Shown here: positions 7,852 through 22,514 of the stretch, piece after piece
Position numbering within the stretch: position 1 is the stretch's first letter
How the letters are laid out: each line of letters opens with the position of its first letter
Program-made: the position numbers and the translations under genes
Origin: Falsiruegeria mediterranea M17
GTDB lineage: Bacteria; Pseudomonadota; Alphaproteobacteria; Rhodobacterales; Rhodobacteraceae
Length of the DNA: 64,000 nt
Direction: 5' to 3'
Assembly (NCBI RefSeq): GCF_900302455.1
Contig: NZ_ONZG01000011.1
Location: 1 to 64,000 of the forward strand
Notes under the pieces: model-generated
Databases searched by the model: none
What the model saw: only the letters and a program-made list of their open reading frames with translations
What the model was told of the DNA's origin: nothing

Positions 7852-8937
7852 TTACCCCTCGCGACTTTCAAAGTCGATGCGTGGATCGACCAGGACATAC
7901 ATCAGGTCCGACAGGATGCCGACCACAAGGCTCATGAGGCCAAAGATGAAGAGCGTGCCGAAGATCACCGGATAGTCCCGCGCCACCGCGGCCTCAAACC
8001 CCAGTCGTCCCAAACCGTCGAGCGAAAAGATCGTCTCAATGATAATCGAGCCTGAGAAGAAGACGCCGATGAACACTGCCGGAAACCCCGCGATCACGAT
8101 CAACATGGCGTTGCGGAAGACGTGGCCATACAGAACCTTGCTTTCGCTCAGCCCCTTGGCGCGGGCGGTCATGACATAGTGTTTTTTGATCTCATCCAGG
8201 AACGAGTTCTTGGTGAGCAGTGTCAGCGTGGCAAAGGCCGAGATGGTCGAGGCGATGACCGGTAGTGCGATGTGCCAGAAATAGTCGCCGATCTTGCCCA
8301 ACAGGCTCAGCTCGTCAAAGTTGTCGCTGGTCAGCCCCCTTAGCGGAAAGATCTGCCAGTACGAGCCACCGGCAAAGAGCACCAGCAACAGGATTGCGAA
8401 CAGAAAGCCGGGGATCGCATAAGCCACGATGATCGCGCCGCTTGTCCATGTATCGAATGTGGACCCATCGCGCACGGCCTTGCGAATACCAAGCGGGATC
8501 GACACCAAGTAGGCGATCAGGGTGGACCATAGGCCAAGTGAGATCGACACCGGCATCTTTTCCAAAACCAGATCGATAACGCTGATGGAACGGAAGTAGC
8601 TTTCACCGAAGTCGAGCGTCATGTAATTGCCCAGCATGGTCAAGAACCGTTCGAGCGGTGGCTTGTCAAAGCCGAACTCTTTCTCAAGCTCGGCGATGAA
8701 TTCGGGCGGCAGGCCGCGTGCGCCGACGTATTCTTCGTTCGGGGCGCCGGATTGTGTCTGAACGTCATCACCCCCGCCAGCGAAGCCTTCGAACACATCG
8801 CCGCCGCCTTGCAGTTCGGCAATGATCTGTTCGACCGGGCCCCCGGGGACAAATTGCACCAGTGTGAAGTTGACGATCATGATGCCCAAAAGGGTCGGGA
8901 TCACCAGCAACAGGCGTCTTAGGATATAGGCTCCCAT
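7852..8937 (-). CDS. yejB: Peptide ABC transporter permease (YejB)
   Basis: Partner permease of YejE, 361 residues with about six membrane helices. The N-terminus [20 protein letters not shown] is typical of DppB/OppB/YejB proteins. A periplasmic loop at about residues 35-110 precedes the transport domain, and the EAA motif is near residues 225-245 ([19 protein letters not shown]). It is 9 bases downstream of yejA and 3 bases upstream of yejE. With YejE it forms the channel for peptides delivered by YejA. Confidence 0.92.
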
Positions 8938-8946
8938 GGGTCTGGC

Positions 8947-10884
8947 TTACCTCAACGCGCCATCAGATTTCAGCTTGGCGGCCTTTTCGGCGTCGTACCA
9001 CCAGAAGTCCAGCACGCCGACCGCATATTCCGGCAGGTTCTCGGGATGATCATACTGGTCCCAATAGGCGACCCAGCTTTTGTCGTTATACCAGACCGGC
9101 ACCATAATCCGCTCGTATCGCAGCGCACGATCCAGGGCTTGCAGTGCGGCGGCTTCTTCTTCTTTGGTCGTGGTCACCAGAGAGCGCTCGATGATCGCAT
9201 CCACCAGCGGGCTGGCCAGACCGGCTGGGTTGAACAGGCTGAATTCGGCCTCGCCCGAACCATACATCTGCATCAGCCCAGTGCCCGCCGACAAAAACGC
9301 GCGGTAGTTGTCAAAGACGATGTCATAGTCCCGGTCGCGGTTGCGCAGGGTATATTGCGCCGAGTCGACCTTGTCGGGGCGCGCATCGACCCCCATCGCG
9401 ACCAGGTTCTTGGCAAAACCATCAATCACAGCGGTCAGGGTTGGCGACGACGATGACGGATAAGGAATTTCAAGCACCAGCTTTTCGCCTGCCGCATTGC
9501 GGCGCATGCCATCATCGCCAACGGCCCAACCGGCCTCGTCCAGAAGTTTCATCGCAGTCCGCAGGTTTCGGCGGTCGTTCAGGCGTTTGGCGCGGGACTC
9601 ATGTGCGCGAACAGACGGTTCGGTCAGCATGTCAGCAGGCACCAGATCACCGAGCGATTTGAGTAGCTCCAACTCTGCCCCTTCAGGCGCGCCTTGGGCC
9701 ATATGCGGAGCGTTCTCGACAAAGGAATGACGTTGCTTGAACAGGCCGTACTGCAGCGATTCATTGGTCCATTCAAAGTTGAATGCCAGCGACAGCGCCT
9801 CGCGCACGCGCTTGTCCTGCAAAGCCGGGCGGCCAAGGTTGAACACGAACCCTGTTGGCGTCGGCGGCGTAAAGTCCGGCAGTTCTTCGCGTTTTACCCA
9901 CCCTTTGGTGACAGCTGGAAAATCGTACTCGGTCGCCCACCGTTTCGAATTCCCCTCGGCACGGAAAGTGTATTCGCCTGCCTTGAACGCCTCGAACCCG
10001 GCGGTGTCATCGGCAAAATACTCAACGCGGATGGTGTCAAAGTTAAAGCGGCCTTTGTTGATCGGCAGATCCTTACCCCAATAATCGGGGTTGCGCTTGT
10101 ATACGATGCGACGGTTTACGTTATAGCTGTCGAGCTGATACGGCCCTGAGCCGGGTGCTGCATCCAGACGCGGCTCATCCAGGCGCGCGCCGGATTCTTC
10201 GTACCATGCCTTCGGAAACACGGGCACGCCACCGGCCTGATCAATCAAAGAACGGCGAGAGATGCCCGTGGCAAAGGTGAATTTCACCGTGTGGTCATCC
10301 AATGCTTCGGCCGACAGGATGCGTTTCTTGACCGCTTGCGCGTAAGACGGCAGCCCCTGTTCCAGGAACAGGTTGTGACTGAACACCACGTCATGCGCAG
10401 TCACCGGCGAGCCATCGGCAAACCGCGCTTCGGGACGCATGTAGAAGATGACCCAGGTTTTGCCCTCGTCATATTCCAACCTCTCGGCCAGCAGGCCATA
10501 GCTTTCGCCAATCTGATCCGCTGGCAGGCTGCCCCCGGTGGCCGGCATCTCACCCAACAGACTTTCGTAGACCATCCAGGAGTATCGCCCCGCCCGACCT
10601 TTGCGGCTGTAGGGGTTCATCGAATCGAAGGTTCCGGGCGCGGAAACCGCGATCTCGCCCCCCTTTGGCGCGTCGGGATTCACATAGTCGAAATGCTCGA
10701 AATCAGCCGGATAGGTCAAATCACCAAAAAACGAATAGCCGTGGCTTTCAATGATCTTTTCATCTTCGGCCCTTGCCAAGCCGGTTGCAGCAAGCACCAA
10801 GCCGATGGACAATCCGATCGCCCCCAGCACCTTTGGCCGAATATCCATCTGGCGGGTTCGGGTCGCGACGCGGGGCGATGTCAT
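8947..10884 (-). CDS. yejA: Periplasmic peptide-binding protein, family 5 (YejA)
   Basis: 645-residue extracytoplasmic solute-binding protein that delivers peptides to YejBE. The N-terminus is basic and is followed by a hydrophobic segment GAIGLSIGLVLAATGLARAE, with probable signal-peptidase cleavage near residue 39. The family-5 signature region is near residues 85-130 (MNPYSRKGRAG and LAERLEYDEG). The ATG at 10884 is preceded by GGAGG about 10 bases upstream, which supports this start although an ATG at 10848 would also keep the signal peptide. It is the first gene of yejABEF. Confidence 0.92.
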   Translation of the reverse strand: MTSPRVATRTRQMDIRPKVLGAIGLSIGLVLAATGLARAEDEKIIESHGYSFFGDLTYPADFEHFDYVNPDAPKGGEIAVSAPGTFDSMNPYSRKGRAGRYSWMVYESLLGEMPATGGSLPADQIGESYGLLAERLEYDEGKTWVIFYMRPEARFADGSPVTAHDVVFSHNLFLEQGLPSYAQAVKKRILSAEALDDHTVKFTFATGISRRSLIDQAGGVPVFPKAWYEESGARLDEPRLDAAPGSGPYQLDSYNVNRRIVYKRNPDYWGKDLPINKGRFNFDTIRVEYFADDTAGFEAFKAGEYTFRAEGNSKRWATEYDFPAVTKGWVKREELPDFTPPTPTGFVFNLGRPALQDKRVREALSLAFNFEWTNESLQYGLFKQRHSFVENAPHMAQGAPEGAELELLKSLGDLVPADMLTEPSVRAHESRAKRLNDRRNLRTAMKLLDEAGWAVGDDGMRRNAAGEKLVLEIPYPSSSSPTLTAVIDGFAKNLVAMGVDARPDKVDSAQYTLRNRDRDYDIVFDNYRAFLSAGTGLMQMYGSGEAEFSLFNPAGLASPLVDAIIERSLVTTTKEEEAAALQALDRALRYERIMVPVWYNDKSWVAYWDQYDHPENLPEYAVGVLDFWWYDAEKAAKLKSDGALR

Positions 10885-18027: not shown

Positions 18028-18125
18028 GTGAGAGGTTGGCGCGGGCGAGCGCCTCGCCAACCTGGTCAGGTCCGGAAGGAAGCAGCCACAACGAGCCCCG
18101 CTTGGGTCGATGTCCAACCTCTCAC
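18028..18125 (+). ncRNA. ffs: 4.5S RNA of the signal recognition particle
   Basis: The 98-base segment folds into one long hairpin. The ends GTGAGAGGTTGG and CCAACCTCTCAC are perfectly complementary. The apical part contains TCAGGTCCGGAAGGAAGCAG, the universal Ffh-binding region with the GGAA tetraloop and the symmetric and asymmetric internal loops. It guides nascent membrane proteins to the Sec translocon with Ffh. It sits between the cpdB-like gene and rsgA. Confidence 0.96.
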
Positions 18126-18176
18126 TTGATCCACCCCGGATCGCATTAATGACCACTCAGCCCAAGGAGGGACTTT

Positions 18177-20332: not shown

Positions 20333-20896
20333 ATGACCCAACGTCCGCTTCCGACCAAAGACCGCCTGATCCGGGCCGCTGCCGATCTCTTCCGGCGCAG
20401 CGGCTATCATGGCGTAGGTCTGTCGGAACTGCTAACCGCGGCGGACGCGCCCAAAGGCTCGCTTTATCATCATTTTCCGAACGGAAAATCCGACCTGGCC
20501 GTGGCGGCAGCAACCTGGGCCTCGGACGAAATGCTACGATTGATTGCGGCCTCGTTCGAACCAGCCGAGGATTTCGAGGCGGGCACGCGAACCCTATGCC
20601 ACAAGGCGGCAAAAATGTTCGACAACTCAGGCCAGTGGGATGGATGCCCGATCTCGGCGACGCTGTTTGAAGGCCCGGACAACACGGACTTTCGCAAACA
20701 CGCGCATCACCTATACGAAGGCTGGATCACCGAAGTTACGCATCACGCGGCCCGGCTGGGAGAGCCCAACCCGCGCAACACTGCGGACACGCTGTTCATC
20801 CTGCTGCAGGGCGGATGGCAACTGGCCAGGGCCCGCCAAAGCTCGGACGAGTTGCGCAAGTTGCCTGATCGGTTGCTTGCGGTCAAAACCGATTGA
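20333..20896 (+). CDS. TetR/AcrR family regulator
   Basis: 187 residues. The N-terminal helix-turn-helix spans about residues 25-47 (VGLSELLTAADAPKGSLYHH), the conserved TetR DNA-binding region ending in YHHF. The C-terminal part is of the TetR_C_33 / YxaF-like type judging by the CPISATLFEG segment, but that is less certain. The ligand is unknown. It begins 22 bases after the second of two palindromic operators shared with the divergent hydrolase, which implies autorepression. Confidence 0.87.
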   Translation: MTQRPLPTKDRLIRAAADLFRRSGYHGVGLSELLTAADAPKGSLYHHFPNGKSDLAVAAATWASDEMLRLIAASFEPAEDFEAGTRTLCHKAAKMFDNSGQWDGCPISATLFEGPDNTDFRKHAHHLYEGWITEVTHHAARLGEPNPRNTADTLFILLQGGWQLARARQSSDELRKLPDRLLAVKTD

Positions 20897-20927
20897 CGTG
20901 CCCCCCGACAAACAGCTAGCCATTCCT

Positions 20928-21108
20928 GTGATGGTTCCCGAGTCGCAAATGTGCGGTCGGGATGAAAAGGGAACACGGTGCGGCCCAATCCGGGGCCAAA
21001 TCCGCGACTGCCCCCGCAACTGTAAGCGGAGAGCAAAGCCGAAACACCACTGACCGAAAGGTCGGGAAGGTCGGCCAAGCGATGACCCGCAAGTCAGGAG
21101 ACCTGCCA
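20928..21108 (+). ncRNA. Cobalamin (B12) riboswitch
   Basis: The element ends in the B12 box AAGTCAGGAGACCTGCC near 21091-21107, and a P1 partner starts near 20930. Between them are the expected conserved segments GGGAACACGGTG and AATCCGGGGCCAAATCC, and CCCCCGCAACTGTAAGCGG, which matches the central core of the class. It precedes a small Cys-rich protein gene at 21213 and should lower its expression when adenosylcobalamin is plentiful. Confidence 0.93.
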
Positions 21109-21212
21109 TCAGAACTGAAACTCGAACTCGGGCGGGGTGTCCGGGCCGAATTGTTGGCACTCCGCCACCAATGTCCGGTCAAATGCTCCGTTCCCTGCGC
21201 GGAGGGCGCACC

Positions 21213-21611
21213 ATGATCTGGAAGACCAACTCTCATCTGTTCACGGCAACAGTATGCCAGCACACGGGTAGAACCTGCCCGGCGGTTCAACGCATGGCGG
21301 AAAAACTGTCGCAAGCCATGATGGCGTCCAAACCGATAACCTCGGGTGATTTCGAGATCGAAGGCTCCAGCGTACTCAAACACTGCCCGATGGAATGCCC
21401 GGCAAAGTTCACCGCCAGCCACGACCGCATCCGCATCTTCTGTGGCGTGACACCCGAAGCCGAGACAGAGGGTTTGAACCGTTTTGCAGACGCCTTGTTT
21501 GATCCGAATCCAAATCCGCTGGCTTTGACGCAATTTGAGCGTCCCTGCGCGATTGCTGAAGCGGTACCCGTGACGGTACGTCAGCCCTCAGAGCATCACG
21601 CGGCCATCTGA
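21213..21611 (+). CDS. Small cysteine-rich protein under B12 riboswitch control, function unknown
   Basis: 132 residues with Cys at 15, 22, 58, 62, 77 and 112, including the motif HCPMECPA. The spacing suggests a metal or Fe-S site, but I cannot name the family. There is no signal peptide or membrane helix. The ATG at 21213 has a clear GGAGG about 9 bases upstream. A cobalamin riboswitch ends about 105 bases before it, so it is presumably made when B12 is scarce. That suggests a part in cobalt or corrin metabolism, or a B12-independent substitute. No cob genes adjoin it. Confidence 0.75.
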   Translation: MIWKTNSHLFTATVCQHTGRTCPAVQRMAEKLSQAMMASKPITSGDFEIEGSSVLKHCPMECPAKFTASHDRIRIFCGVTPEAETEGLNRFADALFDPNPNPLALTQFERPCAIAEAVPVTVRQPSEHHAAI

Positions 21612-21633
21612 CCAAAAGCGAAAGTCCCGGAAA

Positions 21634-21824
21634 CGCTTCCGCCCGTCGTCAGTGTTTCTGGCGAAACACATCCTCCCGTTGGGTTGGGCCTCGCTTCGCT
21701 CGGCGGGTGGCACTTGTGGCGGACCAACTGCCCAAAAAGACCTCGCGCCGAGCCAGAGGCGAGGCGCCCGGCCCAAAGCCGTTGGCGAGGCTGACGCAGT
21801 CAGGATCGCTCGGGTGCGGGAGCG
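21634..21824. repeat. Palindromic intergenic repeat, copy B
   Basis: About 190 bp between the 3' ends of the Cys-rich gene and the phosphatase gene. It opens with CGCTTCCGCCCGTCG and closes with CTCGGGTGCGGGAGCG. The variable hairpin is GTGTTTC-TGGC-GAAACAC (21652-21669), a sequence different from copy A at the same place but fully paired. The blocks CTCCCGTTGGG, CTCGCTTCGCTCGG and GCTGACGCAGTCAGGAT match the other copies. A second stem, GCGCC/GGCGC, is near 21745-21767. Confidence 0.85.
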
Positions 21825-21878: not shown

Positions 21879-22514
21879 CTACTCCAGCACGCGCACCATT
21901 CGACCCGTTGAAGCCCATTGCAGTTGCTCGTCCGTTTCCACCGCGCAGGGACGCACCGAACGAAGGCGCGCAAGGGCATCACGCGGCTTCTCTCCGCATT
22001 CAATCATCAGACGCAACGCGATCATCCCCGATCGTCCGCATCCCCCCTTGCAGTGCACCAGAACCCGCCCACCGCCTGCCAGCGCCTGCCGCGCAGATGC
22101 GCTGACATCCGGCCATTGGTCCAGGACAACCCGTTCGGGTACGCCGAAATCAATGATCGGCAGGTGCACCCAACGGCAGGCCCGGCTCTGAATGTCCGCC
22201 CCGAAGTGGCGCGCGCCATGTTGCAGCATTTCCACCTCTGTCGTCATCGACAGCACGAGCCCGGGCGCCCACGACGCGATCAGGTCCAAGTCTGACTCAT
22301 AGTCGCCGTACCGGCCCGGCAATGGGGAAAGCGCCAGGGTGCCGCCGCCCACCTGCAACGCATAAAACACCATTTCAGACATGCCATCCCCCAAGGAATT
22401 CAACAGGCTCAAACCGTCCGCCCACGGATACAATTCCAAAACTTGTACAGCCGACCCGGCCAAATCCAAACGAAATTCGCGCACGGCGGCGGTGGACGTC
22501 GATGGCTGCGACAA
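21879..22514 (-). CDS. Protein tyrosine/dual-specificity phosphatase-like
   Basis: 211 residues with the Cys-phosphatase signature VHCKGGCGRSG, which places the catalytic Cys at 155 and the phosphate-binding Arg at 161. An Asp-containing loop (LPIIDFGVPE, near 118-127) may supply the general acid. The arrangement resembles the cyclin-dependent-kinase-inhibitor-3/dual-specificity group found in bacteria. The substrate is unknown. It diverges from dnaX with only about 40 bases between the starts, and its 3' end abuts repeat copy B. Confidence 0.78.
   Translation of the reverse strand: MSQPSTSTAAVREFRLDLAGSAVQVLELYPWADGLSLLNSLGDGMSEMVFYALQVGGGTLALSPLPGRYGDYESDLDLIASWAPGLVLSMTTEVEMLQHGARHFGADIQSRACRWVHLPIIDFGVPERVVLDQWPDVSASARQALAGGGRVLVHCKGGCGRSGMIALRLMIECGEKPRDALARLRSVRPCAVETDEQLQWASTGRMVRVLE

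Follow-up and report, generated by a model that had tools for sequence, protein, structure and literature searches.

A divergent, stand-alone DUF1636-like gene behind a cobalamin riboswitch beside dnaX in Roseobacter-type bacteria

Introduction

What does a cobalamin (B12) riboswitch control when the gene behind it stands alone, with no B12 gene for a neighbour? The question arises at one locus of Falsiruegeria mediterranea M17, within the 64,000-nt stretch of contig NZ_ONZG01000011.1 analysed here (the window). The gene encodes a small protein with four conserved cysteines, which we place as a divergent relative of DUF1636, an uncharacterised family whose genes lie right behind cobalamin riboswitches and ahead of B12-making and importer genes.

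Our literature search returned no paper joining DUF1636 and cobalamin, and none for COG5469; searches on CobW, the cobalamin riboswitch and Rhodobacteraceae gave nothing on the four-Cys gene among the matches listed. The term DUF1636 by itself was found in two papers, and two articles on CobW and cobalt (PMC7895991, PMC7689651) are not among them. A small-RNA survey of Ruegeria pomeroyi reports a cobalamin riboswitch homologue, with no tie to the four-Cys gene in the part of the text available (PMC4809877).

Results

The riboswitch and the gene it serves

The features of the locus, in window coordinates, are the following.

20915..21124, + strand: cobalamin (B12) riboswitch aptamer (RF00174, 133.2 bits, E 2.7e-33, model positions 1-189)
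21125..21196, + strand: leader from the aptamer to the ribosome-binding hairpin, with a G-rich conserved start (14 dnaX-type leaders, alignment A7)
21197..21209, + strand: ribosome-binding hairpin GCGC-GGAGG-GCGC with the Shine-Dalgarno sequence in the loop (invariance, covariation)
21213..21611, stop codon included, + strand: gene for the 132-aa four-Cys protein, divergent DUF1636-like
21255..21278, + strand: codons of the first Cys pair, C15-x6-C22 (C15 in 72 of 73 members, C22 in 71 of 73)
21384..21398, + strand: codons of the second Cys pair, C58-x3-C62 (C58 in 72 of 73 members, C62 in 73 of 73)

The Rfam covariance model matches a full aptamer, far above its gathering threshold of 31.5 bits. 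A preliminary description of this DNA had already recognised the B12 riboswitch, and the match over model positions 1-189 bears this out; the start given there, 20928, was 13 nt late. The aptamer ends 88 nt before the start of an open reading frame at 21213-21608 (stop to 21611), in which all the residues described earlier are present: 132 amino acids with Cys at 15, 22, 58, 62, 77 and 112 and the stretch HCPMECPA. A longer in-frame reading, from an ATG at 21171, would give 146 amino acids, but two near homologues (L002 and L003) have no upstream in-frame ATG, which supports the start at 21213 (MIWKT).

Upstream of the riboswitch lies a TetR-family gene, and on the 3' side of the four-Cys gene a phosphatase-like gene runs on the - strand (21882-22484). 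The next + strand gene that we found is dnaX (NCBIfam), the conserved part of which lies about 0.9 kb on, with recR further along. Given this arrangement the riboswitch serves the four-Cys gene alone, and the earlier view of it as the sole downstream gene stands. The window also holds a small SRP RNA gene at 18029-18127 on the + strand (RF00169, 57.3 bits), and an SRP RNA of the same family lies upstream in 11 of 11 of the loci L044-L054.

A divergent branch of DUF1636

The sole Pfam match of the window protein is to DUF1636 (PF07845) with 15 bits and E 0.034, which does not reach the cut-off of 31.6, and a search of NCBIfam gave no match. Neither library thus gives it a curated cobalamin function, in keeping with the preliminary remark that this is no known cobalamin synthesis or transport gene. 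The homologues say more. DUF1636 is matched at E ≤ 0.1 by 12 of the 17 close homologues, window protein included (best 3.8e-5), and by 20 of the 22 more distant members in alignment A5 (best E 6.6e-32), and hhalign aligned the window-branch set with A5 at a probability of 98.9%, with E 2.1e-17 over 117 columns. Because the weak direct match, the matches of the homologues and the hhalign result agree, we regard the window protein as a diverged branch of the DUF1636 superfamily, and on these comparisons it shares a common ancestor with DUF1636 members; a wholly unknown family, as first supposed, it is not. As the genomic settings below show, the branch to which the four-Cys gene belongs is divergent and stands by itself, next to dnaX, in Roseobacter-type bacteria.

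Spread and riboswitch linkage

A strict search with the single protein found matches in the same genus alone (4 of 41 genomes, its own included). The picture of a genus-only orphan that this search gives is wrong, since a 17-row profile matched 58 of 394 genomes of the family, sampled at about one per genus. A class-wide search matched 2 of 240 genomes, its own and one other. A pattern-based scan of named genomes gave 13 loci, in Tropicibacter, Ruegeria, strain KLH11 and alphaproteobacterial MAGs, and two further homologue records come from Tritonibacter. Two Tritonibacter mobilis loci (L055 and L056) lie on molecules of about 1.2 Mb labelled plasmid; dnaX, recR and SRP RNA stand beside the gene there, so these molecules look like chromids or mislabelled pieces of chromosome.

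The riboswitch travels with the gene. Rfam places one upstream of the homologue in 73 of 75 distinct loci, L042 and L043 being the same loci as L002 and L003 and counted once; by set the tally is 1 for the window, then 5/5, 11/11, 20/20, 20/20, 15/17 and 1/1. In the 72 loci measured (L173 lies outside this set) the riboswitch shares the strand of the gene and lies 29-143 nt 5' of its start, and in the dnaX-type loci searched it scores at least 113 bits. The riboswitch was missing at L102 and L115, also in a search at a laxer threshold; L115 has 57 codons and no start, and is probably no real gene. A survey of riboswitch-linked homologues therefore finds the linkage conserved, and no confident match to a non-B12 family lacking it came to light.

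Two genomic settings

By setting, the 72 loci examined with tblastn (L042/L043 counted once, L002-L004 left out) divide into 32 of operon type, 26 of dnaX type and 14 others; the dnaX setting is also that of the window gene and its three relatives from the same genus. Genes of the dnaX type have no partner and lie 0.6 to 2.3 kb 5' of dnaX. Those of the operon type precede a FecCD/Peripla_BP_2 ABC importer, at 31 of 32 loci in the order gene-ATPase-binding protein-permease (the order differs at L072), and the ATPase start overlaps the stop of the small gene by 4 nt in 22 of the 32. L072, in genome G109, has two cobalamin riboswitches on the same strand, one before the small gene and one after it, ahead of the importer genes.

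The same order, DUF1636-ATPase-binding protein-permease, is seen in 4 of 8 annotated plasmid records (Gemmobacter, Sinorhizobium, Ruegeria and Mesorhizobium), all 4 with a riboswitch; on the Gemmobacter plasmid the importer operon is convergent with cobF, cobA and a gene for cobyrinate a,c-diamide synthase. No cobalamin riboswitch was found in the other 4 records (two cyanobacterial, Methylibium and Roseibium). The DUF1636 gene lies beside cbiB in the Methylibium record, and no B12 gene was found near it in the Roseibium record. On the cyanobacterial plasmids, of Synechococcus sp. NIES-970 (L177) and Gloeocapsopsis dulcis (L178), DUF1636 adjoins TonB receptors, a periplasmic binding protein or GTP-binding proteins, and to judge from these neighbours the family may have a part in siderophore or zinc systems too.

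A quick tree of 96 proteins, built on few columns, is compatible with the dnaX type having arisen once (p-AU 0.909). Two genomes, G093 and G218, carry both a dnaX-type and an operon-type copy. This weakens a simple relocation out of the importer operon, and the dnaX-type gene is therefore no less a paralogue than a relocated gene.

The importer, for its part, often lacks the gene. In 75 genomes the small gene was not found directly upstream at 33 of 79 places with a strong match to the importer binding protein, a count made against 60 profile-match places, from which weak rows, second fragments and stop-containing frames had been omitted; judged by eye, none of the omitted rows lies beside a strong importer match. 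We inspected 20 of the 33 gene-less places: a simple pattern found a B12 box in 11, an ATPase reading frame follows the box within about 0.3 kb in 7, and a recognisable, degenerate copy is present in 1. This copy, at L196 in G229, has 93 codons and lies between B12 box and ATPase, at about 1932-2214 of the reverse complement. Since 7 of 20 places go directly from B12 box to ATPase, the importer can do without the small gene, which is at most an accessory to such importers, and the 33 places without a copy weaken the reading of it as a simple importer partner. Among 13 dnaX-type genomes the importer binding protein gives a strong match in 7, a weaker one only in 2, and none at E 1e-30 in 4.

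The four-Cys core

The core pattern is C15-x6-C22-x35-C58-x3-C62, and over 73 members (L115 left out) its cysteines are found in 72, 71, 72 and 73 proteins respectively. C77 (32 of the 73) and C112 (25 of the 73) belong mostly to the dnaX branch, where most members also have H8. Of the six cysteines first described, four are thus a conserved core, and the other two are largely a mark of this branch. Two pairs of conserved cysteines would match the needs of a single metal or Fe-S site.

The pairs are not those of DUF1636 at large. The N-terminal CxxC of that family and the CxxxC after it (12/15 and 54/58 in the numbering of the window protein) are incomplete in this branch: C12 and C54 are absent from 28 of 28 dnaX-type proteins, which do have C15, C22, C58 and C62. 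Conversely, C22 is absent from 23 of 23 DUF1636 proteins of other types, which have C15 in 21 and C58 in all 23. With the operon-type DUF1636 proteins the window protein has in common the core of C15, C22, C58 and C62, the riboswitch, remote homology and, in most, a ribosome-binding hairpin of the same kind. It differs from them in lacking C12, C54 and a C-terminal GWC segment and in having C77 and C112, and its gene is alone beside dnaX, whereas theirs precedes an ATPase gene. In one protein, L111 from G328, the Cys motif is duplicated in tandem, with CMAGCDRPCTVA occurring twice.

A conserved hairpin at the ribosome-binding site

The 13 nt directly before the start, GCGCGGAGGGCGC, are invariant in 14 dnaX-type leaders, much of which otherwise varies, and they put GGAGG into a hairpin loop. 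The stem does change across 21 leaders of operon type or similar to it, and 90.5% of its cells remain paired. Three of the four stem pairs have changed on both sides, which 14 of 500 shuffles reach, and the covariation is 0.337 compared with 0.111 in shuffles, none of the 500 reaching it; pair types are no more numerous than in shuffles (315/500). GGAGG lies near the start in 59 of 74 leaders, and 48 of these 59 have the full four-pair stem, as against 1 of 87 background sites, where the background is every ATG opening a reading frame of at least 150 aa rather than known starts, and the 74 leaders are related and not independent of one another. The 13-mer occurs once in the genome, in the window, but its backwards control also occurs once, so that its rarity by itself is uninformative.

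The fold of 21108-21236 is no better than that of shuffles (z -0.03), and no terminator-like site was found in 20850-21750. The simplest guess is that the hairpin controls translation; it could be the output of the riboswitch or the site of a regulator. Many operon-type leaders (e.g., L074, L078 and L088) have a short upstream reading frame about 70 nt before the start, with a Shine-Dalgarno-like sequence of its own, which overlaps the main start in another frame. In L098, L100, L101, L109, L110 and L113 the main gene itself starts at such an upstream-type site, just past the riboswitch.

Fold and structural relatives

An AlphaFold2 model of the window protein, built from 14 sequences, has pLDDT 86 and pTM 0.80. 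Its strand and helix order we take to be compatible with that of the Aquifex ferredoxin Fd, and the spacing of the first Cys pair is x6, presumably against about x12 in thioredoxin-like [2Fe-2S] ferredoxins. Foldseek against the PDB gave a best E of 0.23 and nothing at 0.001 or better, and the best VIA comparison (Z 5.6) is to a pseudopilin. Thioredoxin-like ferredoxins and 9jn8 are absent among the Foldseek and VIA matches listed, an absence that excludes nothing.

The entry 9jn8 ('ORF378', 133 aa) is a DUF1636 homologue with a solved structure, for which no related paper was among the matches listed under either name. It is similar to the protein of the genome's own cobW-type locus, C29 (E 2.4e-30), and to the operon-type profile (E 4.3e-10); the window-branch profile matched PDB chains only at E 0.09 or worse, 9jn8 not among them. 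A 2Fe-2S ferredoxin model was matched weakly by 1 of 22 members of the operon-type alignment (E 0.0056). A computational modelling study has placed DUF1636 among the thioredoxin-like [2Fe-2S] ferredoxins (PMC4520260). In these proteins, of which Aquifex Fd (PDB 1M2A) is one, there are two Cys pairs, the second C-x3-C, as in the window protein. As the structure search gave no ferredoxin match, it is from the DUF1636 homology and the Cys pattern that we infer a possible ferredoxin-like protein in the window branch.

Other B12 sites in the genome and the link to cobN

The window riboswitch is one of four RF00174 matches in the 5.28-Mb genome. Another stands before DUF1636-cobW-cobN (C29), where the DUF1636 gene is a canonical paralogue of the window gene; both have a cobalamin riboswitch of their own, but the paralogue precedes cobW and cobN whereas the window gene stands alone. 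A third precedes a set of genes for DUF4198, CbiM, CbiQ and an ABC ATPase (C31), in which the DUF4198 protein and a 193-aa protein without a Pfam match are encoded on the - strand at 8342-9142 and 7146-7724 of L038. The fourth lies before a FecCD/Peripla_BP_2 ABC importer (C48) that is homologous to that of the operon type and comes without the small gene. This importer differs from the BtuCDF B12 importer in falling below the NCBIfam cut-offs for BtuC (195.5 of 334 bits), BtuD (121 of 281) and BtuF (43.9 of 234), its class being FecCD/Peripla_BP_2 instead. The window gene is the one B12-switch target found in its own genome without a biosynthesis or transport neighbour.

We also looked for cobN (TIGR02257) in 40 of the 58 carriers of the gene and 40 of the 336 non-carriers, with kinship ignored. 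It is present in 40 of 40 carriers, in one of them split over two contigs, compared with 25 of 40 non-carriers, of which 24 are over the cut-off and 1 is split; a further 5 have a partial match below the cut-off and 10 have none, and 3 of these 15 cobN-less genomes are assemblies 73-75% complete. All 13 dnaX-type genomes tested have cobN. The trend between carriers and non-carriers places the four-Cys gene in B12 makers.

Discussion

What is new here, as far as comparison of sequences can tell, is a diverged, stand-alone, riboswitch-linked branch of DUF1636 with a clear tie to B12. What the protein does is a matter of weighing possibilities. Our best explanation, which we would put at roughly 40%, is that it is a small B12-repressed redox protein of the [2Fe-2S] type that aids the processing of corrinoids in the cytoplasm; we infer the repression by B12, the cofactor, the electron transfer and the substrate alike. 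The gene would be a stand-alone member of the cobalamin regulon, repressed through its riboswitch when B12 is plentiful, and probably at the level of translation, because we found no terminator-like site and the ribosome-binding site lies within a structure. Shortage of B12 would lead to synthesis of the small cytoplasmic protein. Its C15, C22, C58 and C62 would together make up a single metal site, for which a redox-active [2Fe-2S] cluster is the likeliest occupant, on a scaffold of the thioredoxin type such as has been proposed for DUF1636, and the protein would supply electrons or ligands for the handling of cobalt in newly made or imported corrinoids, either by Co(III)/Co(II) reduction before adenosylation or by stripping of the upper ligand.

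A parallel may be found in the small Fe-S reductases that serve siderophore importers. Such Fe-S reductases act in siderophore uptake, and an imported metal chelate commonly must be reduced in chelate-importer systems. The redox reading gains support because relatives of the protein associate with metal-chelate importers, which are corrinoid-type here to judge from the riboswitch and siderophore-type in two cyanobacterial records. The preliminary suggestion of an Fe-S or metal accessory in corrinoid metabolism would fit the linkage, the context and the four-Cys core. Against our best explanation, the window gene lies outside the importer operon in its own genome, where the C48 importer is below the B12 cut-offs, and the 33 importer places at which no copy was found and the 4 plasmid records in which no riboswitch was found also speak against it. 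Finally, the same Cys pattern would be expected from a Zn or Co(II) site in place of a [2Fe-2S] cluster.

That last point leads to the main rival of the redox reading, the handling of Co(II) or Zn(II) beside the CobW route, in which the four cysteines would bind either metal and the protein, as a chaperone or buffer, would pass on or protect cobalt for CobW-CobNST when B12 is low. CobW itself uses thiols for Co(II) (PMC7895991). The canonical paralogue's place immediately 5' of cobW and cobN, with a riboswitch of its own, the presence of cobN in every carrier tested and the riboswitch before the CbiM/CbiQ cobalt transporter are all what a chaperone would lead one to expect, but the paralogue and the cobN trend support the redox and metal-handling readings alike. 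Moreover the role is already filled by CobW, and the nearer relatives sit with the FecCD/Peripla_BP_2 importer, a class that carries chelates and not free cobalt. On balance we consider a chaperone rather unlikely.

The importer could matter in a different way if the protein docked on the ATPase of a corrinoid importer and tuned transport to the redox or metal state, the dnaX copy acting in trans. The overlap of stop and start codons with the ATPase gene in 22 operon-type loci and the homologous importer with its own riboswitch in this genome suit such a gate, but 4 of the 13 dnaX-type genomes have no match to the binding protein and 2 a weaker one, and G093 and G218 keep both types of copy side by side, so that a gate seems to us quite improbable. 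Even less credible is that the dnaX-branch copy has moved outside corrinoid metabolism and merely inherited its riboswitch. The loss of C12 and C54, the presence of C77, C112 and H8 in most members and the lack of an adjoining B12 gene at the dnaX-branch copies seen would agree with a new role, but a function unrelated to B12 leaves unexplained why the riboswitch is kept at no less than 113 bits in the dnaX-type loci, and cobN is found in every dnaX-type genome tested.

Returning to the redox protein, one may go a step further and suppose that the subfamily is an undescribed kind of bacterial corrinoid reductase, a tiny B12-repressed Fe-S protein; this bolder proposal we hold to be unlikely. 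Such an enzyme would reduce or de-ligate the corrinoid on the cytoplasmic side of a riboswitch-controlled importer, or else where aerobic synthesis ends. Its analogues would be the siderophore-reducing Fe-S proteins and, in function, animal CblC. The copy in Roseobacter-type bacteria lies apart from the importer operon and has a riboswitch of its own and a conserved hairpin at the ribosome-binding site.

We see in the four-Cys gene a good candidate for an as yet unstudied accessory step in the way bacteria handle B12. Its stand-alone, riboswitch-linked version in marine bacteria offers a clean genetic handle, being one gene without downstream partners. If reduction or chaperoning of cobalt or corrinoids is indeed its role, it would fill in a little-known stage between the entry of corrinoids, or the insertion of cobalt, and adenosylation. 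Engineered production of B12, in which genes of the aerobic pathway are moved into E. coli, could then benefit.
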